A DNA stretch of 64,000 nt from Chitinophaga pollutisoli (lineage in GTDB: Bacteria > Bacteroidota > Bacteroidia > Chitinophagales > Chitinophagaceae). The stretch spans positions 4,308,001 to 4,372,000 of the forward strand of contig NZ_CP149822.1 of assembly GCF_038396755.1 (NCBI RefSeq). Reading direction: 5' to 3'. Positions 29,722 to 56,308 of the stretch are shown here, in pieces. The position numbers were made by a program, and so were the translations under genes. The notes beneath the pieces are model-generated. The model was given only the letters and a program-made list of their open reading frames with translations. It did no database searches and had not been told where the DNA came from. The stretch's first letter is position 1, and every line of letters starts with the position of its first letter.

Positions 29722-30102
29722 ATGCCTACAATACAACAATTAGTAAGAAAAGGAAGAGAAATTATCCGGGCCAAATCCAAGTCCAGAGCGTTGGATGCTT
29801 GCCCGCAGCGTCGTGGCGTATGTACCCGTGTGTACACTACCACTCCGAAGAAACCGAACTCCGCGTTGCGTAAAGTAGCGAAAGTGAAGCTGACCAACAA
29901 AGTGGAGGTTATCGCTTACATTCCGGGTGAAGGTCACAACCTGCAGGAGCACTCTATCGTACTGATCCGTGGTGGCAGGGTGAAGGACCTTCCGGGTGTT
30001 CGTTACCACATCGTTCGCGGTAGCCTCGATACTGCTGGTGTGAAAGACCGTAAGCAAAGCCGTTCCAAGTATGGTACCAAAAAGGAAAAGGCTAAAAAAT
30101 AA
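29722..30102 (+). CDS. rpsL: 30S ribosomal protein S12
   Basis: 126 residues. The decoding-site loops are present: [16 protein letters not shown] (Lys43/44) and [16 protein letters not shown] (Lys88). The wild-type lysines argue against streptomycin-resistant alleles. It is the first gene of the str operon, 33 bases before rpsG. Confidence 0.97.
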
Positions 30103-30135
30103 TTTGTAATAAATAGTTCGAAATTTTTCAAATAA

Positions 30136-30603
30136 ATGAGAAAGCAAGCTGCTAAAAAATTACCCCTGGCTCCCGATCCCAGGTTCCAGGATAAACTGGT
30201 AACCCGTTTCGTGAATAACATCATGGAGCAAGGAAAAAAGAGCATTGCCTACCGTATTTTCTACGATGCGGTTGACCGTGTTAGCCAGATGACCAACGAA
30301 AACGGCTACGAAGTTTGGAAAAAAGCACTTTCCAACGTAACTCCCGCCGTTGAAGTACGCAGCCGCCGTATCGGTGGTGCTACTTTCCAGATCCCCGCAG
30401 AAGTTCGCGCCGACCGTAAAGTGTCCCTGAGCATCAAATGGCTGGTTCGTTACGCTGGCGACAGGAATGGTAAGAGCATGGCTGAGAAACTGGCGAACGA
30501 AATCGTAGCCGCCAGCAAAGGTGAAGGTGCCGCTTTCAAAAAGAAAGAAGATACCCACCGTATGGCTGAAGCTAACAAAGCATTCTCCCACTTCAAGGTA
30601 TAA
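30136..30603 (+). CDS. rpsG: 30S ribosomal protein S7
   Basis: 155 residues with the S7 lines DKLVTRFVNNIMEQGKKSIA, PAVEVRSRRIGGATFQIP and KSMAEKLANEIVAASKGEG. It binds 16S rRNA near the exit site. A terminator follows, and fusA, its usual neighbour, is 19 kb away. Confidence 0.97.
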   Translation: MRKQAAKKLPLAPDPRFQDKLVTRFVNNIMEQGKKSIAYRIFYDAVDRVSQMTNENGYEVWKKALSNVTPAVEVRSRRIGGATFQIPAEVRADRKVSLSIKWLVRYAGDRNGKSMAEKLANEIVAASKGEGAAFKKKEDTHRMAEANKAFSHFKV

Positions 30604-31707: not shown

Positions 31708-34700
31708 TTATTTCACATTGACCAGCACCTTGATCTTCCCGTTGCCGGATTTGAGTTCCTGCAGCGCTTTCCCAAGTACCTGGCCCATTTTTACTTTTTC
31801 GGGATCGGCTTTCATGGCGTAACCAGGCCTGCTGGAAGTCACCAGCAGATCACCGCGCTCGATGGGGCCACCTTCGTCGCATACTTTCGTCGGGATCACG
31901 CCCACCACGCCAACGGGCACCTGCTCGGAGGGAGCATCGAGGTCTTCCTGCTCTGTTAGCAACACGCCTGGCTTCGTCGCATACACGCCCGCCACCAACG
32001 TAGAATAAGCCTGTGCCGACTTCTCCATCATCCGGTCTGTCCGTTTGGAAATCACCATCACATCTCCCGGCTCGTAGCTATCGCGTGCACCTTCCACATC
32101 GAATGCTTCCGCCAGATCGGCTCCGCCATTCGTCGTTCCACTATTGAAAAAGCCCATTCCCGTGTTGGAAATACGCGCCACATTGCCGCCGTTTCGTTGG
32201 AAAACAGCGAGATTACCCGTCGCATTCTGCTGGTTAACCAGCAGAGCATTGCCGGTTCCCTGGTTCTCAATCGTGACAATAGATTGCGTATTGGCGGTAT
32301 TCGTGTTCAAAAAGTGAGCGGCTCTGCCCATACCTGTCGTCGGAATAAAGCCCTGCACTGCATTTCCGGTGCCGGTGGTACTGCCAGCAACCCCGTTGCC
32401 TTTGGCGGAAACCGCATATATGCCATCCCCGCTACCTGCGGCTAGCGCAGTAATACCGTCGCCGTCACCGTTTGCGTCGGTTGCATGGAAAGATCCGCCG
32501 GAGCCACTGGTACCTTTTGAAACGCCATATACACCAGCAGTACCGAATGAAGATGAACTCGTTGTGATTTCGCCTTGTACCGCAGCACTGCTGCTTGTGG
32601 TGTTATCGATCCTGAAACTGCCCGCGGGGCCTGTACCCTCTGTAGTAGTGAGAAGCGCCGGATTATTGTTGGCTGCATTTCCGTTGGAGAACCAACCTGC
32701 AAAGCCGTTGGAAATAAGCGATGTTCTTCCGTGCACGGCAGCACCTGCTCCGTTTACGATGCTTTCTATGGCATTCCCGTTTTTCATAGCGGTTGCACTG
32801 AATGTAGTGCCATTCCCATTTCCAAGCGCCACCAGCGCAATGCCATTACCGGATGAATTGGAAGAATGGAAGATACCGCCAAATCCACCGGTACCGGAAG
32901 CCACGCCATATACCGCCGCGGCTCCAAAGTTGCCGAATATCGTATTGACTTCTGCCCTTACTGCTGCGCCTACACTGGTCGTGTTGTTGATCGTAAAGGA
33001 AGAGGCATTGCCCAATTTATTATCGGGTACGTTGCCTTTGCCGATAGAATAAACTTCCAAAGTATTGGCATTGATATTATCCGCATTGGAGTTTGTAAAC
33101 CTTCCTGCACGACCGGTGCTCATGCCTGCGCCGATCTCACCCAACACGCCAATTCCCGTATTAGACTGGTCGCTGGAGATAAATCCCCGAACACCATAAC
33201 CTCCACCGTTATTGCGGCCAACGACTGCCCCGGCGATGTTGCTGGTGGTACGGCCCACTACGGCTTCGCCTGCGTTGTTGTTATCGCCAATAATACCGGC
33301 ACTTATCTGAGAATTGGCAACGCCATGTATGGCAAAACCGGTATTGGTGGTAGCAAGCACGCCCTTTCCCGAGCCGGTAGTCGACACGCTAATGATGTTC
33401 CCGTTACCAGCGGATGAGGCATTGAGCACATTATTACTGTTCGCATTGTTATAGATGACAATATCGGCTGGGATCCCGTTATTGCTGGTAGCAAGCAAAC
33501 CCGTACCCGTATTGCTGTTGGCATACACGCCGTAACCGTTGGCGGTGGCATTGCCATACACGCCCAGGCCATTCGGCGCTGAACCATATAATCCCCATCC
33601 ACTGCCGGCATGCGAGCCCCATACGCCAATTCCCAATCCGCCGGTGCCATTATTCAAACCGCGCACGGCTGTAGAAAAGCCACCAGGCGCGGTGGAAGAG
33701 ATAATCCCCCGCACTGCTGTAATATTGGACGAAGTGGTGTTGTTGACGCCTTCGATGGAGGCGCCGTCGCCATTGTTGCTCAACGAGAGCAGTGTAGCCG
33801 CATTGTTTTCGGTAGTCACATATGGTAGCGTGAGACCGCCACCGCCACCACTTGCCGGCGCCCAGTTGGTGCCGTCGAACCGGAGGTATTGTCCGGAAGC
33901 AGGTGTTGTGTTGCTGATGGGCGTTCCCTGCAATTTCGCTACCGTCGGATCCGGATACGTGCCGGACAGATCGCCACCTGCTGTAACGCCATTGATATCG
34001 CCAGCTGTGCCCTGGGGGCCGGCAGGACCGATGGGGCCTGGATCACCCTGGTCACCTTTATCACCTTTGTCTCCCTTATCACCTTTATCGCCCGTGTTGC
34101 CCTGAAGCCCCTGTGCGCCGGGGTCTCCTTGATCGCCCTTGTCACCTTTATCGCCCGGCACACCCTGGATACCTTGCACGCCTTGCAAGCCAGGTAATCC
34201 TTGCAGTCCGATGGGACCAGGGTCTCCTGCATCACCTTTGTCGCCTTTGTCTCCCTTATCACCTTTATCGCCCGTGTTGCCCTGAAGCCCCTGTGCGCCG
34301 GGGACTCCTTGATCGCCTTTATCACCTTTATCGCCCGGCACACCCTGGATACCTTGCACGCCTTGCAAGCCAGGTAATCCTTGCAGTCCGATGGGACCAG
34401 GGTCTCCTGCATCACCTTTATCGCCGGTTAGGCCCTGGATACCCTGCGCACCCGGATCACCCTTTTCCCCTTTGTCACCTTTATCGCCGGTTGCACCTTG
34501 CATTCCTTGTACGCCGGGATCACCCTTTTCCCCCTTGTCACCTTTATCGCCGGTTGCACCTTGCATTCCTTGTACGCCGGGATCGCCTTTATCCCCTTTG
34601 TCACCTTTATCACCGGGAACGCCTTGAATACCTTGCACACCAGGGTCGCCTTTATCCCCTTTATCTCCCTTATCGCCGGTTACACCTTGCATTCCTTGTG

Positions 34701-35262
34701 CACCAGGATCCCCCTTCACACCCTGAACACCCTGTGGACCCGCATCTCCTTTCGCACCCGTTGCTCCCGCAGGACCCGTAGCGCCCGCCGGTCCCACAGG
34801 CCCAGGCGCCCCCGTTGCCCCCTGCGGCCCCGCAGGCCCCTGCACCCCGGCAGGACCGGGATTGCCATCTGCAGCATACAACGCAAACGGAACGCTCATC
34901 AGCTGCTGGGTGCCCAGTGTCTGGAAACCGCCGCCGGTATTCACTTCCACCTGCAAAAACTGGTTGGCGTTTTTCCAGGGCACTGCCGCGAAAGTACCGC
35001 TGACCGGGGTACCGCGACCCACCTGCAGGTTAAACAAACCCATCGCATTGGTCGTAGTCTGATGGGTTTCCTGGTATTCAATAGCGCCGTTCGGCCCGCC
35101 GCCACGAATGGAAAAGCGAACCCCCAGCGACTGCGCTGCCACTACGGAGCCATTGCTGTTACGCGCTACCGCCTGGTAATTAATGCCCGACAATGCATGC
35201 TGTGCACGCGCAGCGAGAGCGGTCGACATCAGCAGCATTAATGTGTATATCGTTTTCTTCAT
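31708..35262 (-). CDS. Collagen-like surface protein A (charged Gly-X-Y)
   Basis: 1184 residues. Residues 1-21 are a signal peptide. Residues 22-131 are the Bacteroidota fibre module ([15 protein letters not shown] ... [17 protein letters not shown]). About 133-421 are unbroken Gly-X-Y, rich in [10 protein letters not shown], which favours charged, hydroxyproline-free triple helices. A short [21 protein letters not shown] motif as in phage tail proteins follows, then about 600 residues of Gly/Asn/Ser-rich repeats ([20 protein letters not shown] and similar), ending in a conserved domain [38 protein letters not shown]. Last gene of cassette A; probably a trimeric cell-surface fibre. It lacks an obvious T9SS CTD of its own. 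Confidence 0.87.
34078..34437 (-). repeat. 180-bp tandem duplication in the collagen A coding region
   Basis: A unit of 180 bp (60 residues, 20 Gly-X-Y triplets) occurs twice in tandem with few differences, and 63-bp (7-triplet) repeats follow at about 34478-34600. The period keeps the reading frame, so length can vary without breaking the protein. Confidence 0.75.
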
Positions 35263-35266
35263 GAAT

Positions 35267-35689
35267 TTATTTTTTAGAAACAGCCGGTTTGATAGGCGCC
35301 GCTACAGGCTCAACGCCCTGTGCCGCCGGAGTAATCGTTGGAGTTGTGCTTGCCGCGGCGTTTGCTTTCGCTTGTTGCGCCGCCGCAGCGGCAGACATTT
35401 CCGAAGGCAGTTGCTCTCCCGATGCGCGCTGTTGGATATTCGCCTGGCGGGCGGCCATGGGAGCCGCCCCGCCCAGCGGTCGTGCGGGGAACAGGTAATC
35501 CATGATCGATGCCGGTGTGCTCAATTTAACAGGAGCAGCCTGTACCCGTAAGGGAGGTTTTGATGCAGCCTGGCTGGCTGCTGTGATTAGCTTATCGAGC
35601 TTGGCCTGTGGGTTATCCGCTTGTTGCGCCAGGGCAGTGCCGGAGGCAAATAGCAACAGCGTTGTGGTCATTGACAGTAACTTATGCAT
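35267..35689 (-). CDS. Small Ala/Pro-rich secreted protein, cassette A
   Basis: 140 residues with a signal peptide (MHKLLSMTTTLLLFASGTALA). The mature part is Ala/Gln/Pro/Lys-rich, with MDYLFPARPLGGAAP in the middle and a PxxAQGxEP motif near the end (AAQGVEPVAAPI). The cassette B and C counterparts share the [14 protein letters not shown] line and the same end. No known domain. It ends 4 bases before the collagen gene. Confidence 0.72.
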   Translation of the reverse strand: MHKLLSMTTTLLLFASGTALAQQADNPQAKLDKLITAASQAASKPPLRVQAAPVKLSTPASIMDYLFPARPLGGAAPMAARQANIQQRASGEQLPSEMSAAAAAQQAKANAAASTTPTITPAAQGVEPVAAPIKPAVSKK

Positions 35690-35726
35690 GTGACTTTATT
35701 AAATGATGTTACGATAAAGTTTAAAA

Positions 35727-36883
35727 TCAGTTATCCCTGAATGGGGTGTACATGAGCGTGAAGTGCAGGCTCTGCCTCTGACGGATACTTGGCACCGTGG
35801 GCAGCAGCCATGCAAAATCCAGTTGGAAGCCTTGCACACGTACACCGAAGCCCGACGAAAATTGCTGCCGGCGCCCTTTTTCCGGATGCTCGTAGAAATA
35901 GCCGGTCCGCACAAAAAATGCATCCCGGTATGCATACTCGATCCCGCCGGAGAAGGCGCATTCGCGCATCTCCTCAGCAAAACCGCCCGGTGCGTCGCTG
36001 AACGAAGTGAAGATGGATTCTACGACGCTTCTGTCGGGATCTTTACCTTTCTCGATCTCGTTGGTCGGCAACCCGTCCGCATCCAGCTTGTAAACGGGGG
36101 AGTAGGCACGAGCAGTTTGTGGATTTCCGCCGCTAGCGTGAACTTATGGTCTTCCGTATGCACGAACGTGTAGCCGCCGCCGATACGGAGCCCCATGGGT
36201 AGGAACGATCTCCCGTCAGATGCATCCGTGTAAGAAAGTTTTGAGCCGATATTTGTCAGGCTGAGGCCCCAGGCAAAACGGTTATTGCCGTCGATATGAT
36301 CTTTATATCCCTGCGAGTAAAATCCGATATCCCCAGCCACGGCGGATGCGGGCTTCTGCAACTGACCGTTGTAATGACCATTGCCCAATTCGCTGCGGAT
36401 ATATCGTGCAGTAATGGAAAGGGCGTACCTGCTCCCGAGTTTGCGCGCATAGGCAAGGTCGATGGCGTATTCCCGGGGCTTGTATTGCTGCAGGAGATTG
36501 CCGTTATCATCGCGGAAGGTGACGTCGCCGTAATTGAAGTAACGGATAGCGGCGCCGAGACTTTCCTGTCCGTTCCAGGTTTTGAATCCAGACAGATACG
36601 TCATGTTCGTCTTTTTGTCAGACAGATCGTACATCCAGGGCGAGTACGATACGCTGGCGCCGTATTCGCCGGCGAAGGGAAGTTTGGCCGCGTTGCCGGA
36701 AAGCGCATTGGCATCTGGCTCGAGGCCGGTGATGGCGCCGCCCAATGCGTTGCTCCGGGCATCGGGGTTTACGAGGAGGAATGCGGCTCCGGTGTTGACA
36801 GGGCGGAGCGCGGTGGTTTGTGCCACCGACGGGGTTGCCGCCAGCATTCCCGCGATAACGGGAATCAGTTTATATAATTGCAT
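35727..36883 (-). pseudogene. PorV-like outer-membrane protein A, one-base frameshift
   Basis: Signal peptide, then AFLLVNPDARSNALGGAITGLEPDANALSGNAAKLPFA and the strand series of a PorV-type beta-barrel (SVSYSPWMYDLSDKKTNMTY, LGAAIRYFNYGDVTFRD). PorV shuttles T9SS cargo from the translocon to the attachment complex. The frame breaks at a run of five C (about 36095 on the minus strand). A sixth restores VPTPPVYKLDADGLPTNEIE and runs on to TLMYTPFRDN at 35727, 385 residues in all, matching intact copy C. Likely intact in the cell. Confidence 0.82.
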
Positions 36884-36898
36884 GGTTTCCGGTTTGGA

Positions 36899-37405
36899 CT
36901 ATTGAACGATGAGTTTTTCGGTGAAGACGAAAGCATTGACTTTCACCATCACGGTATAAATTCCTGCCGCGAGTTTATCGACCGAAGTGGGGATCACGAC
37001 TTTACCCGGGGCGAAGCTCCGGTTGTCCTGGAGGATTACCTGCCCGGAGGTGTTGAGGATCATGAAGGAAACGAAAGCGTGCGTCAGGAGGTTGAATTGA
37101 ATTTTGAATGTAGTGAGTGCGGGATTGGGAAAGAGGGAAAAATCCAGTACGGGATTGCGGCCGGGTAGCAAGGGAGGCAGTACTTCCGGCTGCTGAAATC
37201 CTTGCGTCAGCAACCTGGAACCTGCTGAAAAAGTAGTGATCGAAGGCTCGCCGATGGTATAATCGAAATGGATGCCGCCAACTATTCCGCTGCCTCCGGA
37301 AGTGGCTATTACTTGTCTTGCCATCACCCACTGCCCCCTGGAAGGGAGATTTGCAGCGGCTATGATCATAATGGTAAAAAGGATGCCGGGTAAATGTGTC
37401 TTCAT
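36899..37405 (-). CDS. Small T9SS cargo protein A (type A sorting domain)
   Basis: 168 residues. Signal peptide, then a compact module ATSGGSGIVGGIHFDYTIGE and LLTQGFQQPE seen in many Bacteroidota secreted proteins. The C-terminal 75 residues are a type A sorting domain: VLDFSLFPNPALTTFKIQF, LNTSGQVILQDN and GIYTVMVKVNAFVFTEKLIVQ. The T9SS exports it and removes or anchors the CTD. It is the first gene of cassette A, 15 bases before porV-A. Confidence 0.85.
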   Translation of the reverse strand: MKTHLPGILFTIMIIAAANLPSRGQWVMARQVIATSGGSGIVGGIHFDYTIGEPSITTFSAGSRLLTQGFQQPEVLPPLLPGRNPVLDFSLFPNPALTTFKIQFNLLTHAFVSFMILNTSGQVILQDNRSFAPGKVVIPTSVDKLAAGIYTVMVKVNAFVFTEKLIVQ

Positions 37406-37706
37406 CGTTTGGAATATGGTGATCGGTTAATTTATTGCTAAAGCAATAGCATCCCCGAAGGCTTACGGCGGCCATCGGGCAAATTGTTGATATACTGTCT
37501 TATCAGCGGAGATAGTTCAGCATGTTTCCGGATATGTGCTTCAAGTAAAGTATGGTAAAAAAGGGCAGCGGTAACTGCGGCGGTAAATCAAAACGATAGT
37601 TAAAATCAGTGGTGCAAAGGTTGGTGCAACGGGGTGCAAGGTATAAAAAATGTCAACAAAATCCGAGCAAATTGAGAATTGAATGCGGTAAAAAACAATA
37701 TAAAAA
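37406..37706. other. Intergenic stretch, cassette A upstream region
   Basis: About 300 bases without a supported gene. The minus strand has CAACCTTTGC near 37620, one mismatch from the -7 consensus, about 200 bases before cassette A; a promoter here is possible but unproven. Confidence 0.35.
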
Positions 37707-37736
37707 GAAAAGGCCGCTTCCATGAAGCGGCCTTTT
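37707..37736 (-). terminator. Terminator of cassette B
   Basis: AAAAGGCCGCTTC-CAT-GAAGCGGCCTTTT, a perfect stem of 13 bp, T-rich on the minus strand, 26 bases after the collagen B stop. Confidence 0.85.
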
Positions 37737-37761
37737 CAATACGTATGTGCGTTATCGTTAT

Positions 37762-40700
37762 TTATTTCACATTCACCAGCACCTTGATGACGCCGGTTCC
37801 GCCGCTCAGTTGCTGCAATGCTTTACCGAGTACTTGTCCGGTTTTGACTTTATCGGGATCGGCTTTCATGGCGTATCCGGGTTTGCTTGAAGTAACGAGG
37901 AGATCGCCGCGGGCGATCGGTCCGCCTTCGTCGCAAACTTTGGTGGGGATAACGCCGACTACGCCCATGGGAACGTGTCCCAGCTCCTCATCCGTAGCCT
38001 GGCCTTCGGTTAATAATACGCCCGGTTTTGTGGCGTATACGCCTGCTACCAATGTGGAATAAGGCTTGGCGGATTTTTCCACCATCCGGTCTGTATTCGT
38101 TGAAATCACGAGGACGTCTCCAGGTTCATAAGCATCGGATGTTCCTTCTACGGCGAATGATTCCGCGAGGTCAGCGCCGCTAACTGCGGTTCCGCCATTG
38201 AAGAAGCCGCGGCCGGCTTTGTTGATACGCGCTACGTTGGCGCCCACGTTTCTGTATATCGCAATATTCCCGGAAGCGCCACGATGATCAACCAATAAGG
38301 CGGTACCGGTACCATCATTACGGATATCTACGGTAGATTCTCCATTCGCGGTATTGAAATTGCTGAAACGTCCGGCGCGCCCTGTCCCGAAGTTCGGTGT
38401 CCAACCATAGATCGCCGAGCCGGTGCCATCGGCGTTCGCTTCAATGGCATTGCCGTTATTGGAATTCGCTACGATGCCTTCACCGGTGCCATTTGTCAGC
38501 GCGATCAAAGCCGGGCGCGGGTTGGTGGCGTTGGATATATAGAAAAGGCCCGCCGTACCCCCGGTTCCATCGGCACGGCCATAAACGCCTGCCGTCCCGA
38601 AGTTGGCGAAGATGGAATTCACAACGCCTACTACACCGGCGGATGTACCTTGTGTATTGTCGACAGTAAATTCACCTGCGTTACCGTTGCCCACGGTTTT
38701 AGCGGTGACTACCGGGTTGTCGTTATCTTCATTAAAGTGCTCGAACCGGGCGGCCCGGCCGGTAGCGAATGTTGGCACCCATCCATACATAGCTGTACCT
38801 GCACCGTCTATGTTCGACTCAACGCCATTACCATCTTTCCCCGCGTTTGCCGTGATGGCATTGCCGTTGCCATCGGTGAGGGCAATTAAAGATGCCCCAT
38901 TCCCGGAAGGGTTGGATGCATAGAAAAGCCCTGCGCGGCCACCGGTGCCCGACGAAACGCCGAAAACGCCCGCCGCTCCGAAGTTGCCGAAGATGGTATT
39001 AACTTCAGCTCTCACGGCAGCGCCTACACTGTTATTGTTATCCAGCAGAAATGAAGAAGCGTTGCCAAGGGTATTGTCGGGGATGTTCCCTTTGCCATTG
39101 GAAACTACTTCAAATGCATTGGCATCGGTATTGTCTGCATTGAAGTTCTCGAATCTGCCTGCGCGGCCTGTACTGCCATTCAACCCTACCTGTCCTAACA
39201 CCCCTACACCCGTTCCCGCAGTGTTCGTTGCGATAAATCCGCGTACACCATAGCCGCCGCCATCATTACGGCCTACCACGGCCCCGGCGATATTGCTTGT
39301 CGTACGGCCAACCACGGCCTCGCCGCCACCATTATTGTCACCAACTATGCCAGCACTGGTTTGGGATGAGGTAATGCCTTGCACGCCAAACCCCCCAACC
39401 GTAGAAGCCCTCACACCCGCGCCGTTACCTGTCGTTGATACGTTGACAACCGTTCCGTTACCCACGGAGTTCACCACCAACGCGTTATTATTATTGGCAT
39501 TGTTGTAGATATTGATAGAAGCAGGTATGCCATTGTTGCTCGTAGCCTGCAGACCTGTCCCGGTATTGCTATTTGCATAAACCCCGGTTCCACTGGCACT
39601 GGCATTGCCATATATGCCTAATCCATTCGGCGTAGTACCGTACACACCCCATCCGGAACCATTCTGAGATCCCCAAACGCCAACACCCAGGCCGCCGGTA
39701 CCATTGTTGATACCGCGCACCCCGGCAGAAAATCCGCCCGGAGCGGTGCTGTTAACAACGCCGCGAACCGCAGCTATGCTGCTGGTCGTCGTATTATTGA
39801 TGCCTTCCAATGAAGTACCATCCCCGTTATTGGTAATGGAAAACAGCGTGGCCGGATTGTTCTCCGAAGCGGAATAGGGAAGCGCAAGCGCGCCGCCGCC
39901 GCCATTGTCAGCCGCAGGCGCCCATTCCGTTCCGGAATATTTCAATACCTGGCCCGCCAGGGGAGCAGTTACCGCAACTGGTATCGTCTGAATCCGGGCT
40001 ACGTTGGGATTAGGATAAGCGCCACCCAGGTCGCCGCCTGCGGCGCCGTTCGGCGGCAGGCTTGTAGGGATCAGACCCGGCGCCAGTTTAGGAAGGGTGA
40101 TCGCCCCATCCGCAACCTGTAAAGTATTCACTGCGTCGTTCGCAATCGCGGGGTTGGGATAAGTGCCGCTCAGCGATCCGCCGGCTGCTACTCCATTGAT
40201 GTCTCCCTGAGGCCCAGCAGGTCCAACCGGCCCCGCAGGCCCAATCGGTCCAATCGGTCCGGCAGGTCCCATTGCGCCAACCGGCCCCGCGGGTCCTACT
40301 GGCCCCTGTGGCCCCGCAACTCCGGCAGGCCCCGCAGGACCATCTGCCCCTGTAGCACCCTGAGGCCCCACCGGCCCAATCGGCCCAACAGGCCCCGCAG
40401 GACCATCCGCCCCAGTAGCACCCTGAGGCCCCACCGGCCCAATCGGCCCAACGGGCCCCGCAGGACCATCCGCCCCAGTAGCACCCTGAGGCCCCACCGG
40501 TCCAATCGGCCCCGCAGGACCATCCGCCCCTGTAGCACCCTGAGGCCCCACCGGCCCAATCGGCCCAACAGGCCCCGCAACTCCGGCAGGTCCAACAGGA
40601 CCCACCGCGCCGGCGGGCCCCACAGGCCCCTGGGGACCCGCAGCACCTACGGGCCCGGCAGGACCAACAGGCCCCGCAGGACCATCCGCCCCTGTAGCAC

Positions 40701-41484
40701 CCTGAGGCCCCACCGGCCCAATCGGCCCAACAGGCCCCGCAACTCCGGCAGGTCCAACAGGACCCACCGCGCCGGCGGGCCCCACAGGCCCCTGGGGACC
40801 CGCAGCACCTACGGGCCCGGCAGGACCAACAGGCCCCACGGGACCAGTCGCGCCATCAGCACCCGCAGGTCCAACCGGGCCCACAGGACCCGCTGCACCC
40901 GCCGGCCCAACAGGCCCGGTAGCGCCATCAGCTCCGGCAGGTCCCACAGGCCCCACAGGCCCCGCTGCACCCACCGGACCCGCCGGACCCGCAGGGCCCG
41001 TTGCGCCCGCAGGACCAACCGGTCCGATAGCGCCTACAGGTCCGGCCGGACCAGCAGGGCCCGCAGGACCGGCGGGGCCGGGATTCCCGTTGGCGGCGAA
41101 TTGCGCGAACGGTACAGACATCAGCTGGTTGGTGCCCAGCGTCTGAAAACCGCCGCCCGTATTCACTTCCACTTGCAGGAACTGGTTGGCGTTGCCCCAG
41201 GGCACACCCGCGAAGGTGCCGGTCACCGGCGTGCCGCGCCCGATCTGTAAAGTGAACAGGCCAATAGCGTTGGTAGCTGTATTATGCGTTTCCTGGTACT
41301 GCACAGCACCGTTCGGCCCGCCGCCCCGGATGGAGAAACGGACGCTCACGGCCTGGTTGGCCAGCACGGAGCCGTTGGTGTTGCGGGCTACCGCCTGGTA
41401 ATTGATACCCGACAAGCCGTTTTGGGCATAGCTTCCCAGCGCGATTGTCAGGCAGAAACATAAAATGTATAGCGATTTCTTCAT
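37762..41484 (-). CDS. Collagen-like surface protein B (Pro/Ala Gly-X-Y)
   Basis: 1240 residues, the largest of the three. Signal peptide and N-terminal fibre module (to about 130) nearly as in C. About 131-428 are Gly-X-Y with GPAG, GPVG and [10 protein letters not shown] units, neutral and Pro-rich, unlike the charged A protein. Then two [24 protein letters not shown] motifs, Gly/Asn-rich repeats ([20 protein letters not shown] and others) with several long imperfect copies, and the conserved end ([12 protein letters not shown] to IKVLVNVK). Last gene of cassette B. Confidence 0.87.
40517..40837 (-). repeat. 162-bp tandem repeat in the collagen B coding region
   Basis: A 162-bp unit (54 residues, 18 triplets) is repeated in tandem, and shorter 63-bp copies precede it (from about 40402). 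In-frame Gly-X-Y duplication allows length change by slippage or recombination. Confidence 0.7.
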
Positions 41485-41489
41485 TGTAC

Positions 41490-41954
41490 TCAGTTTTTAG
41501 GGGTTGTAGCTTTGGGCTTCTCGAAATGCAGCGAAGGTTCTTTGCCCTGGGCTGCCGGATCAATGGTTTTAGCGGCTGCCTTGGCAGATTCGCCGGCTTT
41601 GTCTTTTTGTGCGGCATCCGCATCGGAAGCGCTGCTCGGGAGTTGCCCGGCAGGAGCTGCCTTTGCCGTGGCCTTTCTCGCACCTGCAATACTCCGGGGT
41701 ACGCCGCCGCCGTTGGAACCGGGGAAGATGTGTTGCTTCACAGCCTGCGGCGATGCAAGGGTGGCTTCTTTGGGCTTGGTGCTTACTTTCAGCGAGGATC
41801 TGGCGGAAGTAGCGGCAGCGCCAGCTTTGGGCGCGAAGACAAAGTCTTTCAGGCTGCCTTTCCCTTCGACTTTCGGTTGATGCGTTTGCTGCGCGTTGAC
41901 TGCGGTGAATGCCGTCAGCAGCAGGATTTGGATGGTCAGGAAAAACTTGAACAT
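41490..41954 (-). CDS. Small Ala/Pro/Lys-rich secreted protein, cassette B
   Basis: 154 residues: signal peptide ([21 protein letters not shown]), then basic and Ala-rich segments, [20 protein letters not shown], and [14 protein letters not shown] near the end. Orthologous in position and pattern to the cassette A and C genes. No domain recognised; perhaps an export or assembly helper for the fibre. It ends 5 bases before collagen B. Confidence 0.75.
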
Positions 41955-41983
41955 GTATTCTGGCTTTATTCGGTGATAGGAAA

Positions 41984-43644
41984 GGTTTTATTATCTGTTA
42001 TCCCTGAAGGGTGTATACATGAGTGTGAAGTTCATGCTCTTCCGCTGCCGGATGCTGCCGCCGGTGGGGATGAGGTAGGCGAAGTCGAGCTGGAAGCCCT
42101 GCACCCTTACACCGAATCCGGTGGAGAACTGCTGGCGGTTTCCTTTGGCGGGATCTTCATAGAAGTATCCCGTCCGCACAAAGAAGTTGCTCTGGTAAGC
42201 GTACTCGATGCCGCCTGCGAAAGAAAACTCGCTGATCTCCTCCCTGAATCCCCCGGCGCATCGCCGAACGAAGTGAAGATGGATTCGACGACACTGCGGT
42301 CGGGATCCTTGCCTTTCTCGATCTCGTTGGTAGGCATGCCATCTTGGTCGAGTTTGTAGGTGGGCGGGGTGGGGACGAGGAGTTTGTTGACGTCCGCAGC
42401 GATGGTGAACTTATGGTCTTCCGTTCTCACGAAGGTGTAGCCACCGCCGATGCGGATGTTCATGGGCAGGAAGGTTTTGGTGTCGCTGGCGTCGGTATAG
42501 GACAGCTTGGTACCGATATTGGTAAAGCTGATGCCCCATGCATACCGGTTGTTGCCGTCGATATGGTCGGCATATCCCTGGGAGTAGAGGCTGATATCCC
42601 CTGCCACTGCGGAGGCCGGCTTTTGCAGCTGCCCGTTGTAGGTGCCGTTGCCAAGCTCGCTGCGGATATACCTGCCCGTTACGGCGAGGGCGAAAAGGTT
42701 ACCGAGCTTTCTGCCATAGGCGAGGTCCACGGAGTATTCCCTGGGTTTGTACTGCTGGAGAACGGTTCCGTTATCATCCCTGAAGGTGACGTCACCGTAA
42801 TTGAAATAACGGACGGCTGCGCCCAGACTCTGCTGTCCGCCCCATGTTTTGAAACCAGAGATATAGGCCATGTGGGTCTTTTTATCGAGGAGGTCCCACA
42901 TCCAGGGGGAGTAGGACACGCTTGCGCCCCATTCTCCCGCGAAGGGGAGCTTTGCGGCATTGGCGTAGATGGCGTTTGCATCGGGCTCCAGCCCGGTGAC
43001 GGCCCCGCCGGTGGCGCTGCTCCTGGCGTCGGGGTTGACCATCAGGAAGGGGGCGCCTACGTTGAGCGGCTGCTTAGCTGACTTCTGTGCCATCAACGGG
43101 CGTACCGCCAGCAATCCCGCCAGAAGGAGGATGGTATTCAAATGCTTCATGGTATACCGTATTAGGCTATTGAACAATAAGTTTTTCGGTGAAGGTGAAC
43201 TGGTTGACCTTCAGGATAACCGTGTAAATCCCCGCCGCGAGCTTGTCGACGGACGTGGGAATGACGACCTTTCCAGGCGCATAATCCCTTACATCCTGGT
43301 AAATGACCTGTCCTGCGGTGTTCATGAGCAGGAAGGAGACATTGGCGTTGGTGAGGAGGCTGAACTGGATCTTGAAGGTGGTCAGTGCCGGGTTTGGAAA
43401 CAGGGAGAAGTCGAGCACGGGCATGCCGCCGGGTATAAGCGGCGGCAGGATCTCTGGCTGCTGGAATCCCTGTGTAAGGAGGATGGGCCCTGCGGACAGA
43501 GGGGAGATGGCGGCTTCTCCGATGGTATAGTCGAAATGGATACCGCCAACGATGCCTGATCCGCCGGAAGTGGAAGTCACGTGCCTGACCAGCACGAGTT
43601 GCGACCGGGCAGGCAGCCACGAGATGGCCAGGAACATGGCCAAT
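41984..43644 (-). repeat. Near-identical 1.66-kb block, copy B
   Basis: Covers porV-B and cargo B. It aligns to 47913-49573 at an offset of about 5930 bases with only scattered differences noticed, far closer than the flanking collagen genes. A recent duplication or gene conversion. Confidence 0.85.
41991..43150 (-). pseudogene. PorV-like outer-membrane protein B, one-base frameshift
   Basis: 386 residues when restored. Nearly identical to intact copy C (47920-49080), but a run CCCCC at 42250-42254 replaces CCCCCC in C, shifting the frame after FTSFGDAPG. Signal peptide MKHLNTILLLAGLLAVRPLMA, then FLMVNPDARSSATGGAVTGLEPDANAIYANAAKLPFA and the barrel strands. The start MKHLN at 43150 is preferred; a longer frame from 43177 overlaps the cargo gene end. 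Confidence 0.82.
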
Positions 43645-43673
43645 AAAAGGTGTTGGGTAGAAATTGTCTTCAT
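43167..43673 (-). CDS. Small T9SS cargo protein B (type A sorting domain)
   Basis: 168 residues, intact. Signal peptide, then TSTSGGSGIVGGIHFDYTIGE and LLTQGFQQPE, and a C-terminal sorting domain with VLDFSLFPNPALTTFKIQF, KVVIPTSVDKLAAGIYTVIL and FTEKLIVQ. First gene of cassette B; porV-B starts 16 bases later. The copy in C is nearly identical but frameshifted. Confidence 0.86.
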   Translation of the reverse strand: MKTISTQHLLLAMFLAISWLPARSQLVLVRHVTSTSGGSGIVGGIHFDYTIGEAAISPLSAGPILLTQGFQQPEILPPLIPGGMPVLDFSLFPNPALTTFKIQFSLLTNANVSFLLMNTAGQVIYQDVRDYAPGKVVIPTSVDKLAAGIYTVILKVNQFTFTEKLIVQ

Positions 43674-44107
43674 AGATCAATTCTCAAAGGGGTGAAAAAT
43701 CAGTAAATGCGCCGCATCACGCTGCAGTCTCGATTCTCGGAAAAGACGACAGGGCTGGTATACGGAATATGTTTCTGCTTGGTTCGGTTGAAATGGCTTA
43801 CGACGTACGGGGTACCCCGACAGTTACTTTCAAATAGGTTAGCGGACGACAGGACATGGAACGCTGTTACGCGTTTTTCTTTGGTTGTTGATATAAACGT
43901 ATACCGGTTTCCGGTAGAACCGTTTTCGATAGGCAGGAATTGAATAGGAGCAGCTTTGCTGCGGTCGGGTCCTTTTCAATAATGATGGTTAAATATGGAG
44001 GTGGGAGATCCTGGGGTAATGCATCACAGGTAGATGTACTATTCTCAGATCGATTGCAAAGTAAGTAATTAAGCATGAGAAAAATTGGATCAATCATAAA
44101 AAAATGG
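43674..44107. other. Intergenic stretch between cassettes B and C
   Basis: About 430 bases with no supported gene and a moderate AT content. A minus-strand TTACTTTGC near 44055 is close to the -7 consensus and could drive cassette B. Confidence 0.35.
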
Positions 44108-44134
44108 AAAAAGGCCGCCCCGGAAGAGGCAGCC
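44108..44134 (-). terminator. Terminator of cassette C
   Basis: On the minus strand GGCTGCC-TCTTCCGG-GGCGGCC with one wobble pair, then TTTTT. The collagen C stop lies 77 bases upstream. Confidence 0.65.
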
Positions 44135-44210
44135 ATACACAAAACCATACATATACCCTTGCTCTCGTCAAAGAATGTATGTCAATGCGGTTATCGTTTG
44201 AAGTCCAACC

Positions 44211-47200
44211 TTATTTCACATTCACCAGCACCTTAATCACTGCTGCACCGGAAGGTAGTTCCTGTAAAGCTTTTCCGAGGATCTGGCCATGTTGCACTTT
44301 TTTCGGATCGGCTTTCATGGCATAACCCTTCCTGCTGGAAGTAACGAGCAGGTCGCCCCGGCGGACGGGTCCGCCTTCATCGCAAACTTTGGTGGGGATA
44401 ACGCCCACAACACCCATTGGCACGAGGTCGTTGATATCGTCCACACCTTCGCGTTCCGTCAGCAATACGCCGGGTTTGGTGGCATACACCCCCGCAACCA
44501 GCGAGGAGTAAGCTTCGGCGGACTTTTCCATTTTGCGGTCGCTGCTGGTGGAGATCACTAATACATCTCCGGGCTCATATTCATGGATCGTTCCTTCCAC
44601 ATCGAATGCTTCCGCAATGTCCGCACCACTATTTTGCGTGCCGCCATTAAAGAATCCGCGACCGGCGGAATTGATGCGGGCCACGTTTACCGAACCGGGA
44701 TTACCTGATCTGAAAACAGCAATAGACCCATTGCTATGTTGTTCCACCGTCAATACCGGATTTGTATTGGCAGTATTGTAATTCACGAACCTGGCTGCGC
44801 GGCCGCCACCGAAGTTGGGAATCCATGCATAGATTGCGGAACCCGTACCATCGGCAGTTGCTTCCACGCCGTCACCGGTGTTGGAGGCGTTTGCCGTTAT
44901 CCCGTTACCGTTACCATCGGCGATGGCGATCAGGGCAGGGCCATTACCGGCCGGGTTGCTGGCATGGAACAATCCTGCATAGCCACCGGTCCCGGAAGAT
45001 ATCCCGTAAATACCAGCCGTCCCGAAGTTGGCGAACTGCGAGTTTACTTCTCCACGTACCGCGGCTTTCGTACCCGTCACACGGTCTACCATGAAATTAC
45101 CGGCGATACCATTCCCGACTGTTGTTACGGTGATAGCGTCACTGGTATTGTTTTCATTGAAAATGTTGAATCGTCCCGCGCGGCCAGTTGCAAAGGTGGG
45201 AACCCATGCGTACAGAGCATTGCCAGCCCCGTCGATATTCGCTTCGATGGCGTTGCCGTCTTTGCTGGCATTCGCCGTTATGGCGTTACCGTTACCATCC
45301 TGGATGGCTACCACGGCGGGGCCGTTGCCGGAGACATTGCTGGAATGAAACAAACCGGCGAAGCCGCCCGTTCCGGAAGAAATCCCGAAGATGCCCGCAG
45401 CTCCGAAGTTGCCGAAGATCGTTTTTACTTCGCCTCTCACTGCAGCGGCTACGCTGTTGTTATTATCAACCAGGAAGGACGCGGCGTTACCCTGCGTATT
45501 ATCCGGGATATTGCCGTTACCGTTGGTGTGCACTTCCAGCGTGTTGCCGGTGGTATTGGTCTGGTTGAAGTTTTCGAATCTGCCCGCGCGGCCGGTACTG
45601 TTGTTCAGACCCACCTGCCCGAGCACGCCTACAGCAGTTCCTGAGGTATTGGTAGCGATGAATCCCCGCACACCATATCCGCCGCCATCATTACGGCCCA
45701 CCACCGCTCCGGCGATGTCGCTGGTGGTACGACCCACCACGGCTTCGCCGCCACCGTTGTTATCACCCACCACACCGGCGCTCGTTTGCGCGCTGGTAAT
45801 GCCATGTACACCAAACCCCGCCACGGTCGAAGCTCTAACGCCCGCGCCGTTCCCGGTCGTCGTCACGTTTACAACTGTGCCATTCCCTACGGAGTTAACC
45901 ACCAAAGCGTTATTATTATTGGCGTTGTTGAAAATACTGATAGAAGCTGGTATACCGTTGTTGCTCGTAGCCTGCAGGCCTGTTCCGGTATTGCTGTTGG
46001 CATAAACGCCATATCCATTGGCGGATGCGTTCCCATACACGCCCAATCCATTGGGTGTGTTGCCGTAAACGCCCCAGCCGGATCCGTTTTGCGATCCGTA
46101 TACTCCTACGCCTAAACCGCCGGTACCATTATTAATACCACGCACCCCTGCGGAAAAACCTCCGGGAGATGCAGAGGAAACAATCCCTCGGATGCTCGTG
46201 ATATTACTGGTGGTCGTGTTGTTCACACCTTCTATCGATGTGCCGTCGCCGTTATTGGTAATGGAAAACAGCGTGGCCGGATCGTTTTCCACCGTTGCAT
46301 AGGGAAGCGTAAGCCCCCCGCCACCGGCGTTATCGGCAGACGGCGCCCATTCTGTACCGGAGAATTTCAAAACCTGTCCCGCCGCCGGAGCCGTCACTGA
46401 CACCGGGATCGTTTGCAACCTCGCCACGGCGGGGTTTGGATAGGTGCCGCTCAGATCACCGCCCGCAGCGCCGTTCGGAGGCAAACTGGCGGGGATCACA
46501 CCCGGCGCCAACTTGGGTAACGTAATGGAACCATCCGCTACCTGTGCCGTATTCACTGCATTATTGGCGATCGTTGGATTAGGATAAGTACCGCTCAGCG
46601 ATCCGCCGGCTGCCACCCCATTGATATCTCCGGCAGGTCCCGCAGGCCCGGCAGGCCCGATCGGACCAATCGGCCCGGCAGGTCCAATGGGCCCCACAGG
46701 CCCCGTAGCGCCATCCGCACCGGCAGGTCCGGCAGGCCCAACTGGTCCCGCTGGTCCCGCTGGTCCGGCAGGCCCTACAGCACCCGCAGGCCCTACAGGT
46801 CCTACAGGTCCGGCAACGCCGGCAGGTCCGGCAGGCCCAACTGGCCCTGTTGCACCGTCTGCACCCGCGGGCCCTACTGGCCCCACAGGTCCGGCAACGC
46901 CGGCTGGTCCCGCTGGTCCGGCAGGCCCTGTTGCACCCGCAGGCCCCACAGGTCCGATCGCACCCACAGGCCCGGCTGGACCGGCAGGGCCCTGCGGCCC
47001 GGCGGGTCCGGGATTCCCGTTAGCGGCGAACTGCGCAAACGGTACAGACATCAGCTGTGTGGTGCCCAGTGCCTGAAAACCGCCGCCCGTATTCACTTCC
47101 ACTTGCAGGAACTGGTTGGCGTTGCCCCAGGGCACACCGGCGAAAGTGCCCGTAACGGGTGTTCCGCGCCCCAGCTGCAAAGTGAATAACCCAATGGCGT

Positions 47201-47414
47201 TGGTAGCTGTATTATGTGTTTCCTGGTACTGTACGGCGCCGTTCGGCCCGCCGCCCCGGATGGAGAAACGGACGCTCACAGCCTGGTTAGCCAGCACGGA
47301 GCCATTGGAATTGCGGGCTACCGCCTGGTAGTTGATACCCGACAAGCCGTTTTGCGCGTAGCCGGCAAGGGTGGCCGACAGTATAAAGAAGAGGAGATAT
47401 AGTGTTTTTTTCAT
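44211..47414 (-). CDS. Collagen-like surface protein C (Pro/Ala Gly-X-Y)
   Basis: 1067 residues. Signal peptide and fibre module almost as in B. The Gly-X-Y block is short, about residues 131-261 ([19 protein letters not shown] units), then two [20 protein letters not shown] motifs, Gly/Asn-rich repeats ([21 protein letters not shown]) and the same end ([37 protein letters not shown]). The shorter collagen block compared with A and B suggests loss or gain of repeats between copies. Confidence 0.87.
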
Positions 47415-47419
47415 GGTGC

Positions 47420-47883
47420 TCAGTTTTTAGGTTGGATAGGCTTGGCTTTGGCAGGTACCGGCGCCGTAAGCGGCGGTTCGGTGCCTTGCGCGCCTACATC
47501 GAAGGGTTTGGCTGCAGATTTGGCGGATGATGTTTTGTCTTGTTGTGCAGCCTGCGCGCCGGATGCGGCACTGGGAAGCTTGGTGGCGGCAGGCGGCGCG
47601 GTTATGTTCGCCTTACGCGCGCCAGCTGTATTGCGGGGAATCCCCCGCCTCCGTTGGAACCGGGGAAGATATGCTGTTTCAACGCCTGTGGCGACGACAG
47701 GGTGGCTTCAATGGGTTTGGGAGCCGAAACCTGGCCAGCCCTTACCCTGCCGATTGCCTGGTCATAGTCGCTGAAGATGCGATGGCGAATGCTCTGTCCT
47801 TCGCCCGCTTTTCTGGCGTCCTGGGCCCGGGTGGTGGCTGATGCGCCCAGCAGGAAAATGATCAGTATGAATAACTTGTTCAT
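47420..47883 (-). pseudogene. Small secreted protein of cassette C, one-base frameshift
   Basis: Starts MNKLFILIIFLLGASATTRA, then reads to [10 protein letters not shown], where the five-G run (minus strand, about 47645) throws it off. With six G it continues IPRNTAGARKANITAPPA and ends [13 protein letters not shown] at 47420: 154 residues, the same length as the intact B protein. Most likely intact in the cell. Confidence 0.72.
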
Positions 47884-47912
47884 GACGAGTGCTTTATCAA
47901 TGAATAGAAATG

Positions 47913-49573
47913 GGTTTTATTATCTGTTATCCCTGAAGGGTGTATACATGAGCGTGAAGTTCATGCTCTTCCGCTGCCGGATGCTGCCGCCGGTGGGGAT
48001 GAGGTAGGCGAAGTCGAGCTGGAAGCCCTGCACGCGCACACCGAATCCGGTGGAGAACTGCTGGCGGTTTCCTTTGGCGGGATCTTCATAGAAGTATCCC
48101 GTCCGCACAAAGAAGTTGCTCTGGTAAGCGTACTCGATGCCGCCTGCGAAAGAAAACTCGCTGATCTCCTCCCTGAATCCCCCCGGCGCATCGCCGAACG
48201 AAGTGAAGATGGATTCGACGACACTGCGGTCGGGATCCTTGCCTTTCTCGATCTCGTTGGTAGGCATGCCATCTTGGTCGAGTTTGTAGGTGGGCGGGGT
48301 GGGGACGAGGAGTTTGTTGACGTCCGCAGCGATGGTGAACTTATGGTCTTCCGTTCTCACGAAGGTGTAGCCACCGCCGATGCGGATGTTCATGGGCAGG
48401 AAGGTTTTGGTGTCGCTGGCGTCGGTATAGGACAGCTTGGTACCGATATTGGTGAAGCTGATGCCCCATGCATACCGGTTGTTGCCGTCGATATGGTCTG
48501 CATATCCCTGGGAGTAGAGGCTGATATCCCCTGCCACTGCGGAGGCCGGCTTTTGCAGCTGCCCGTTGTAGGTGCCGTTGCCAAGCTCGCTGCGGATATA
48601 CCTGCCCGTTACGGCGAGGGCGAAAAGGTTACCGAGCTTTCTGCCATAGGCGAGGTCCACGGAGTATTCCCTGGGTTTGTACTGCTGGAGAACGGTTCCG
48701 TTATCATCCCTGAAGGTGACGTCACCGTAATTGAAATAACGGACGGCTGCGCCCAGACTCTGCTGTCCGCCCCATGTTTTGAAACCAGAGATATAGGCCA
48801 TGTGGGTCTTTTTATCGAGGAGGTCCCACATCCAGGGTGAGTAGGACACGCTTGCGCCCCATTCTCCCGCGAAGGGGAGCTTTGCGGCATTGGCGTAGAT
48901 GGCGTTTGCATCGGGCTCCAGCCCGGTGACGGCCCCGCCAGTGGCGCTGCTCCTGGCGTCGGGGTTGACCATCAGGAAGGGGGCGCCTACGTTGAGCGGC
49001 TGCTTAGCTGACTTCTGTGCCATCAACGGGCGTACCGCCAGCAATCCCGCCAGAAGGAGGATGGTATTCAAATGCTTCATGGTATACCGTATTAGGCTAT
49101 TGAACAATAAGTTTTTCGGTGAAGGTGAACTGGTTGACCTTCAGGATAACCGTGTAAATCCCCGCCGCGAGCTTGTCGACGGACGTGGGAATGACGACCT
49201 TTCCAGGCGCATAATCCCTTACATCCTGGTAAATGACCTGTCCTGCGGTGTTCATGAGCAGGAAGGAGACATTGGCGTTGGTGAGGAGGCTGAACTGGAT
49301 CTTGAAGGTGGTCAGTGCCGGGTTTGGAAACAGGGAGAAGTCGAGCACGGGCATGCCGCCGGGTATAAGCGGCGGCAGGATCTCTGGCTGCTGGAATCCC
49401 TGTGTAAGGAGGATGGGCCCTGCGGACAGGGGGAGATGGCGGCTTCTCCGATGGTATAGTCGAAATGGATACCGCCAACGATGCCTGATCCGCCGGAAGT
49501 GGAAGTTACGTGCCTGACCAGCACGAGTTGCGACCGGGCAGGCAGCCACGAGATGGCCAGGAACATGGCCAAT
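47913..49573 (-). repeat. Near-identical 1.66-kb block, copy C
   Basis: The partner of 41984-43644. Here porV is intact and the cargo gene is frameshifted, the reverse of copy B, so the two blocks together show both correct readings. Confidence 0.85.
47920..49080 (-). CDS. PorV-like outer-membrane protein C
   Basis: 386 residues, the one intact copy. Signal peptide, then VNPDARSSATGGAVTGLEPDANAIYANAAKLPFAGE, the N-terminal signature of PorV (LptO), followed by alternating strands (GASVSYSPWMWDLLDKKTHM, AAVRYFNYGDVTFRDDNG, GGYTFVRTEDHKFTIAADVN) to a closing TLMYTPFRDNR. PorV is the outer-membrane shuttle of the T9SS that presents CTD proteins to the PorU sortase. A cassette copy beside CTD cargo implies a dedicated delivery role (inference). 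Confidence 0.84.
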   Translation of the reverse strand: MKHLNTILLLAGLLAVRPLMAQKSAKQPLNVGAPFLMVNPDARSSATGGAVTGLEPDANAIYANAAKLPFAGEWGASVSYSPWMWDLLDKKTHMAYISGFKTWGGQQSLGAAVRYFNYGDVTFRDDNGTVLQQYKPREYSVDLAYGRKLGNLFALAVTGRYIRSELGNGTYNGQLQKPASAVAGDISLYSQGYADHIDGNNRYAWGISFTNIGTKLSYTDASDTKTFLPMNIRIGGGYTFVRTEDHKFTIAADVNKLLVPTPPTYKLDQDGMPTNEIEKGKDPDRSVVESIFTSFGDAPGGFREEISEFSFAGGIEYAYQSNFFVRTGYFYEDPAKGNRQQFSTGFGVRVQGFQLDFAYLIPTGGSIRQRKSMNFTLMYTPFRDNR

Positions 49574-49602
49574 AGGAGGTGTTTAGTAGAAAAATGCTTC
49601 AT
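49097..49602 (-). pseudogene. Small T9SS cargo protein C, one-base frameshift
   Basis: Starts MKHFSTKHLLLAMFLAISWL and reads as copy B up to GEAAISP, where a five-G run on the plus strand (49429-49433) replaces a run of six. The following frame is exactly that of copy B (LTQGFQQPEILPPLIPGG to TEKLIVQ). Restored length 168 residues, the same as A and B. Confidence 0.82.
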
Positions 49603-49960
49603 AAAACAATGGTTATGTGATGGTTCTGGAAAACGGGGTAATGATTGCCGGGCATGCCGGAAATGAAGCGCAAAGCGATCTGGTAATGACGGGTTCCCTT
49701 CAGTGCGGTCTGGTTGATGCTATGCTGCTATTCCCCGGGACATTTTTTGGCGCCCGGTAATGGTTACTGTATAAACGGTTCATGTACAGTGGACAATGGG
49801 CCTCTTCAGCTCTCACAGGGTGTAAAACTAGAAAAAAATCCGCCCGGTGAACGGGTTAGCGGAATCTGTTTCATTTCTGGCGGTTTTGGACGGATAAGCG
49901 GTGAGATTGGAAAAAGGGTAGTTTTTAACAATTTGACAAAATCAGACTGCTTTATTTATT
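49603..49960. other. Intergenic stretch between cassette C and fusA
   Basis: About 360 bases with no supported gene. It holds the divergent control regions of cassette C and fusA; no clear promoter for cassette C was found. Confidence 0.4.
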
Positions 49961-49973
49961 GATAGAAATTGAT

Positions 49974-49982
49974 TACCTTTGC
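49974..49982 (+). promoter_or_regulatory. fusA promoter -7 element
   Basis: TACCTTTGC followed by CCCCCAAATT, nearly the same block as at rpsL and rpsJ. The upstream TTG is not at the usual spacing. fusA starts 36 bases downstream. Confidence 0.75.
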
Positions 49983-50018
49983 CCCCCAAATTGCATTACT
50001 TATAGTCATTTTACTTTT

Positions 50019-52163: not shown

Positions 52164-52191
52164 TCAGCCACAAGTTGATAGATAGAAATAA

Positions 52192-52226
52192 GAAAAAGGG
52201 CCCTCCGGTATTCCGGGGGCTTTTTT
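52192..52226 (+). terminator. Intrinsic terminator after fusA
   Basis: AAAAAGGG-CCCTCCGG-TATT-CCGGGGGCTTTTTT, GC-rich hairpin and T run, 29 bases after the fusA stop. Confidence 0.8.
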
Positions 52227-52332
52227 CATGCTCCCATCCTAACCCCCCACCTTCCTGCGCCAGCCTTTCCTTCCGGCATGTATAACCACACTTACCGTTA
52301 AACGCACGCCTGTACCGGCGTTACGGCTTGGT

Positions 52333-53330: not shown

Positions 53331-53333
53331 TGG

Positions 53334-55246: not shown

Positions 55247-55298
55247 TATAATACGCTGAATGTCAATAAATAATGCAATCCTTTAGCAGGGGCTGGTA

Positions 55299-56266: not shown

Positions 56267-56308
56267 CCTCCCAAATTGAGGGGTAATAATAGAAGAAGTT
56301 CATTGCAT

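Follow-up and report, generated by a model that had tools for sequence, protein, structure and literature searches.

The genome of Chitinophaga pollutisoli (one contig, 6.08 Mb) carries, within a 64,000-nucleotide stretch that was analysed at full length and is here called the window (NZ_CP149822.1, positions 4,308,001 to 4,372,000), three tandem minus-strand cassettes (c1 to c3; 31708 to 49602) with identical gene order. In the order of transcription each cassette encodes an adaptor that ends in a type A C-terminal domain (CTD) of the type IX secretion system (T9SS), a PorV barrel, a small secreted protein rich in Ala, Pro and Lys, and a collagen fibre protein. The core unit is the pair of adaptor and fibre, not the quartet. 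We read the cassettes as a fibre-display unit in which the adaptor CTD would act in trans for the fibre, a dedicated PorV would be the shuttle and the small protein would serve the fibre cap, and we give this reading a probability of about 55%.

Adaptor and fibre genes are linked across Bacteroidota

The N-terminal (N) domain of the fibre was searched for in 147 whole genomes of the family and in 296 of the phylum, and was present in 60 of the former (114 matches) and 83 of the latter. We fetched the regions around 60 family and 40 out-of-family loci, a subset of all that consisted mostly of strong matches plus six weak ones. Adjacency was scored with hidden Markov models (HMMs) built from the family loci, counting an adaptor open reading frame (ORF) on the same strand within 300 bp of the fibre. 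Such an ORF was found at 55 of 61 family loci (window included), at 30 of the 34 strong out-of-family loci and at 2 of the 6 weak ones. Direct adjacency thus holds for 87 of the 101 fetched loci, or 90 when loci interrupted by PorV are counted, and none of the 101 has the two genes side by side on opposite strands. At three of the six family misses (the window, L011 and L012) PorV and the small protein lie between the pair; at L021 an adaptor-domain ORF lies ~570 bp away, and at L039 and L054 none was found beside the fibre.

The reverse search, with a profile of the adaptor domain only (A3, 34 rows) over the same 147 whole genomes, placed the adaptor in 57 genomes, the fibre in 60 and both in 54 (Fisher p 1.9e-29). 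Of 87 adaptor matches, 78 lie at most 6 kb from a fibre N domain on the same strand and the other nine are on a fibre-free contig; conversely, 84 of the 114 fibre matches have an adaptor within 6 kb. The preliminary description of this DNA, made from the sequence alone, had suggested that the small CTD protein acts as an anchor or adaptor, and this idea now has strong comparative support, in the form of linkage, far beyond the genus. It had made conservation of the gene order elsewhere a condition of its reading. The strict four-gene order is not conserved outside the genus, and as a widespread arrangement it is rejected because PorV occurs at the fibre locus in only 5 of the 61 family loci: the window, L011 and L012 read adaptor-PorV-small protein-fibre, L016 and L044, from two other genera, read adaptor-fibre-small protein-PorV, and most loci are free of PorV.

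The adaptor is a protein of ~170 aa that combines a conserved domain of ~50 aa with a T9SS sorting domain. An alignment of 32 short adaptors (A2), taken from the 62 adaptor ORFs listed, has the conserved short part GG...SIGE...TQGxLQP ahead of the CTD. At E 0.001, 28 of these 32 match a type A sorting model, one a type B model (TIGR04131; the L019 adaptor, L019:8684-9187, identified by its sequence) and three neither, a mixture which implies that the adaptor domain is retained when one sorting domain replaces another. In the window, the c1 and c2 adaptors are type A and not type B: both exceed the curated cut-offs of TIGR04183 (23 bits) and PF18962, and the c3 adaptor is over the TIGR04183 cut-off in the genome search. 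Of eleven long adaptor forms read by eye, ten have an extra stretch and a CTD-like end; the L023 adaptor (L023:12138-12932), from a genome with 13 fibre matches, appears by eye to have a dockerin-like end instead of a CTD. In predicted structures the adaptor CTD is well modelled and the N-terminal part poorly.

All 35 aligned fibre N domains match NF053851 (Bdello_MAT_N) at E ≤0.001, the best at 1.2e-14. Those of the window score 39 to 48 bits, under the cut-off of 60 for membership, and the window member shown covers positions 3-78 of the 162 in the model. By sequence comparison the fibre N domain shares homology with a portion of the N domain found in the mosaic adhesive trimers (MATs) of Bdellovibrio. 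In this genome it was found in the three cassettes only. It is predicted to be a beta domain; a fold search against the PDB gave no match at E ≤0.001, and a profile search gave weak antibody-like matches and nothing more.

The other end of the fibre is variable. We scanned the last 200 residues of 105 ORFs out of 115 listed (at least 230 aa, 3' end inside the locus), leaving out eight ORFs of the weak loci L105-L110, the second L104 ORF and one masked L014 ORF. These ends match 12 Pfam families, among them Peptidase_S74 (20), C1q (6), Lcl_C (5) and OmpA (1), so that exchangeable tips of the kind that MATs carry are found across the 105 ends. The T9SS sorting domains PF18962 and PF13585 were found by Pfam at none of the 105 ends (the NCBIfam matches list 25 of 44 families, and the negative rests on Pfam), and the fibre cap is therefore rejected as a T9SS CTD. 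The three window fibres end, by eye, in KVLVNVK and not in an LPXTG anchor, and a sequence search of the PDB with the c1 cap gave no match at E 0.1.

Because the linkage is strong and the fibre ends examined lack a sorting domain, it is probably the adaptor that takes the fibre through the T9SS in trans or serves as its dock. The fibre would be a MAT-like mosaic with a Sec signal peptide, a constant N domain, a collagen or other shaft and an exchangeable tip, and without a T9SS signal of its own. The adaptor would be the T9SS cargo: its conserved N-terminal part would bind the fibre N domain, its CTD would bring the complex to the T9SS, so that the signal acts in trans, and once on the surface the adaptor would remain as the fibre dock. 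In Chitinophaga and two further genera, a dedicated PorV would be shuttle and holder for the adaptor in place of the shared PorV, and the small disordered protein would serve the fibre cap in assembly or tip function. We infer binding, co-export, docking, shuttle choice and the role of the small protein from sequence.

The adaptor could also leave by the T9SS and become fixed on the surface without the fibre, which would cross the outer membrane by some other route and then bind the adaptor through its N domain. Identical linkage data apply to such a dock, Bdellovibrio MATs with a related N domain are surface proteins, and in two genomes (G082 and G135) fibre matches far outnumber adaptor matches, so one adaptor may serve several fibres. 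Separate export is nevertheless somewhat unlikely, since no alternative exporter gene was noticed repeatedly next to fibre genes, although no systematic search for one was made, and the YadA anchor barrel (type Vc) is absent from the full Pfam list of the 105 fibre ends. It is distinctly improbable that there is no physical tie at all, with the fibre secreted or kept in the outer membrane and the pair only co-regulated or co-inherited. Adaptor and fibre N-domain distances do correlate (Mantel r 0.58, 94 pairs), which shared descent alone could give, and PorV is absent at most loci; against this, the linkage persists over many families of the phylum while order, spacing and CTD type change.

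Several observations count against carriage in trans by the adaptor. The A3 rows came from fibre-linked adaptors and favour their relatives, though the search was genome-wide. There are 30 of 114 fibre matches without an adaptor within 6 kb, 17 of them in G082 and G135, which have many fibres. The adaptor domain alone folds with low confidence (pLDDT ~50-60), and a fibre with a MAT-like N domain (L020:9092-11920) has an OmpA end, which binds peptidoglycan and would be odd for an exported tip. The MAT N domain also occurs in Bdellovibrio, which is not known to have a T9SS, so another export route must exist there. A general form of the display reading, in which the T9SS across Bacteroidota exports large signal-less fibres loaded in the periplasm onto a signal-bearing adaptor, with specialised PorVs for some, is put forward tentatively, as plausible but short of probable.

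PorV and the small protein as additions to the pair

The genome has five PorV genes and 15 CTD places, and every PorV gene adjoins a CTD gene: the housekeeping copy lies beside PorU, another beside a type A ORF of ~1830 aa, and three are in the cassettes. By the NF033710 model (cut-off 250) the c3 PorV qualifies with 371 bits, and the first ORF of the broken c1 gene, at 234, is under it. SprA is encoded once, at 4133074, and PorU and the housekeeping PorV near 2640056; with these core T9SS genes elsewhere, it was wrong to call the cassettes self-contained. Given its presence at so few of the family loci, PorV is an add-on to the adaptor-fibre pair.

A tree of 29 PorVs, mostly from genomes picked for having several, joins seven fibre-linked PorVs from three genera in one group (moderate support, 82/92). 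This group is apart from the housekeeping PorVs of this genome (G000) and of G106 and G006, the only further members of the genus that gave matches among the genomes searched; the clustering of labels was matched in 0 of 500 shuffles (13 labelled rows only). Because the fibre-linked PorVs group apart from the housekeeping PorV, the tree suggests that the cassette PorV is a private shuttle for a type A CTD. Excerpts of PMC12618676 (2025) state that a single PorV serves every type A CTD, and the cassettes suggest exceptions to this. Elsewhere, six genomes (L129, L131, L132, L133, L140 and L002) have an extra PorV gene directly behind a gene that matches a CTD, and four paralogs (L121, L126, L128 and L139) have no CTD gene upstream, so pairing of PorV with a cargo may be common without being universal. 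The unpaired paralogs weaken the case for a private shuttle, as do the group support, which is below the strong mark of the tree program (95/80), and the long stem on which five of the seven grouped PorVs sit.

The cassette PorVs might simply be surplus copies that raise the dosage of the general PorV. In favour of this, the c3 protein passes the general PorV equivalog model, and most fibre loci have no linked PorV. We consider it unlikely, because in the tree the cassette PorVs stand apart from the housekeeping PorVs that their own genomes encode, the Chitinophaga ones on a stem of 1.31 changes per column, and because the c2 and c3 PorVs are homogenised along with the adaptor and not with the fibre.

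This homogenisation is seen in this genome and in L141, L142 and L143, three of the five Chitinophaga loci (L141-L145) whose PorV is closely related to that of the cassettes; L141, L142, L143 and L145 hold tandem copies. Within a genome (this one, L141, L142, L143) the c2 and c3 adaptor and PorV genes are 94.4-99.9% identical; when this genome is compared with L141-L143, these genes share 77.8-91.7% identity, and L142 compared with L143 gives 89.0-92.5%. The small proteins and fibres of c2 and c3 are only 68.5-72.9% and 75.5-76.3% identical within a genome (from three genomes, with some of the fibres partial). In comparisons of c3 between species, identities reach 85-86% for the small protein and 82-84.5% for the fibre in the two closest pairs, and 69-74% and 71-76% for this genome against L142 or L143; at c2, L142 and L143 share 70% and 77%. 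Over its first 400 bases, the c2 fibre gene is 88% identical to that of c3 in this genome and 73-76% in L142 and L143. The simplest reading of these identities is that gene conversion holds adaptor and PorV alike in c2 and c3, whereas the part on display is free to diverge. The pattern would fit, without proving, a PorV that serves the adaptor and a small protein that serves the fibre; a point against it is that c1 is not homogenised with c3 (adaptor 72%, PorV 75%).

The small disordered protein accompanies fibres of one cap type only. By eye it directly adjoins all 19 fibres with a KVLVNV-type cap, downstream in 14 and upstream in 5, the latter all from the genus of the window and one of them frame-broken. 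A filter for such proteins counted it beside 16 of these 19 fibres and beside 0 of 93 with other ends; the filter was tuned after examples, and the three known ones that fail it are those of c3 (frame-broken), L012 and L013.

Three cassettes inserted in the str operon

The preliminary description of three tandem cassettes of the same order within the str operon is borne out by the ORFs, the family models and the flanking genes (Table 1). The insertion lies between what we take, from their sequences, to be rpsG (30136-30603) and fusA; rpsL is likewise named from its sequence. The cassette copies align as repeats with 61-100% DNA identity at a spacing of ~5.9-6.4 kb, well above chance. The c1 fibre consists of a signal peptide (by eye), a MAT-like N domain, a Gly-X-Y block, fibre repeats and a C-terminal cap. 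The Gly-X-Y runs span ~291, ~297 and ~132 residues in c1, c2 and c3; PF01391 matches the c1 fibre, the only one run whole against Pfam, and collagen-like NCBIfam models match in c1 and c2.

Table 1. Positions of the cassette genes, the flanking str operon genes and the split porU gene (window coordinates unless a locus is named).
Feature	Position	Strand	Evidence
rpsL and rpsG, str operon genes left of the insertion	29722..30603	+	rpsL 98%, rpsG 88-93% identical to cassette-flanking proteins of L011 and L012
c1 collagen fibre, 1184 aa	31708..35262	-	PF01391; NF053851 39.4 bits (cut-off 60); own HMM
c1 small Ala/Pro/Lys-rich secreted protein, 140 aa	35267..35689	-	translation; counterparts in other genera
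c1 PorV, frame-broken near 36090	35727..36883 (ORFs 36020-36883, 35727-36071)	-	NF033710 234 bits (first ORF); PorV HMM matches both pieces
c1 adaptor, 168 aa, intact	36899..37405	-	TIGR04183 38.3 bits, PF18962 33.6 bits; adaptor family; signal peptide by eye
c2 collagen fibre, 1240 aa	37762..41484	-	NF053851 42.5 bits and collagen-like NCBIfam models, all under cut-off
c2 small secreted protein, 154 aa	41490..41954	-	translation
c2 PorV, frame-broken near 42254	41991..43150	-	PorV HMM
c2 adaptor, 168 aa, intact	43167..43673	-	TIGR04183 39.0 bits
c3 collagen fibre, 1067 aa	44211..47414	-	own HMM; N domain NF053851 48.3 bits
c3 small secreted protein, frame-broken near 47640	47430..47883	-	translation; counterparts elsewhere
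c3 PorV, intact, 386 aa from ATG	47920..49080	-	NF033710 371.3 bits (cut-off 250)
c3 adaptor, frame-broken near 49429	49097..49602	-	TIGR04183 over cut-off in genome search
fusA, right flank	49959..52163	+	90-92% identical in L011 and L012
split porU	L007:9984-13369 (G000:C1 near 2641000-2644400)		NF033707

A single four-gene cassette occupies the same rpsG/fusA site in G106 (L011) and G006 (L012), and by this comparison the insertion in the str operon is old in the genus. G006 also has a second fibre locus, without PorV, away from the str operon (L020). In two loci from another family of the same class (L075 and L076), rpsL, rpsG, fusA and rpsJ follow in direct succession; a fibre-adaptor pair lies a few kb from this unbroken run (L075:1039-10855, L076:882-10818). 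In the window, further ORFs of non-ribosomal appearance lie between fusA and rpsJ (52163-56276), so the str operon seems to be split twice in this genome.

The gene content given for each cassette holds as to the four families, but four members are frame-broken as assembled, which had been overlooked: in c1 and c2 the broken gene is PorV, and c3 has breaks in both its adaptor and its small protein. Each of the four has an intact counterpart, at L144:3819-4976 (c1 PorV), L141:9432-10619 (c2 PorV), L141:3023-3529 (c3 adaptor) and L141:4743-5195 (c3 small protein). L141, L142 and L143 each have one complete cassette. Of a second cassette, L141 has the adaptor and PorV, while in L142 and L143 its fibre extends past the fetched stretch; the cassette of L144 is of the c1 type. 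The likeliest cause of the breaks would be homopolymer indels in the assembly, because a core gene of this genome, porU, is split at a G run (two ORFs, NF033707 positions 1-354 and 369-1094) much as the c2 PorV is. Cassettes that are decaying or phase-variable, with real breaks that switch members off, would account for four broken members, for a c2 PorV break within a G run and for the broken adaptor and PorV of L145 (Chitinophaga sp. E66). This we hold to be rather improbable in view of the intact frames in L141-L144, the break in porU and the fusA of L145, which is itself in four frames (L145:328-2508) and points to errors in that record. The L145 record seems rich in indel errors.

Relation to known systems and meaning

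The closest logic to the cassettes is, by analogy, that of SprB-SprF and PG1035-PorP, in which, according to excerpts of PMC9143113 and PMC12618676, a cognate barrel collects and holds type B cargo. In both settings the barrel gene lies directly beside the T9SS cargo that it presumably serves, and the shuttle doubles, or in the cassettes would double, as surface holder; the cassettes differ in that their cargo has a type A CTD and their barrel is PorV. In the PorU-PorV attachment pair, too, PorV directly follows the gene of a CTD protein, but the cassette adaptor has no protease domain and the cassette PorV falls in a different tree group.

The Lcl_C ends of the fibres may correspond to the lectin-like tips of MATs. 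Compared with MATs, the match shown covers the first half of NF053851 only and window members are under its 60-bit cut-off; here there are collagen shafts and a tie to a T9SS adaptor. The Bdellovibrio bacteriovorus MATs are similar, in excerpts of PMC10769870, in their constant N domain and exchangeable tips, including S74 and TNF/C1q-like ones, and their N domain is there presumed to bind a surface element still to be identified. The LPXTG-anchored Scl1/Scl2 and Lcl share the Gly-X-Y shaft; the cassette fibres have no LPXTG (by eye), differ in N domain, cap and partners, and score under the curated cut-offs. Among the open-licence PubMed Central (PMC) papers that the literature searches listed, titles and abstract openings mention neither an adaptor-fibre pair nor a cognate PorV for type A cargo. 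A word search of PMC10994853 for exported partners that lack a CTD gave no passage, and one of PMC10202324 gave none on this point.

If the display reading is true, it would add a rule to the T9SS, namely that a partner may bear the signal and that private PorV shuttles can serve type A cargo. It would give a testable handle on how MAT-type fibres stay on cells, and the adaptor would become a first candidate for the sort of partner on the surface that is required by the MAT N domain. It would also uncover a widespread class of adhesins in a major phylum and a modular way of displaying collagen-like fibres.

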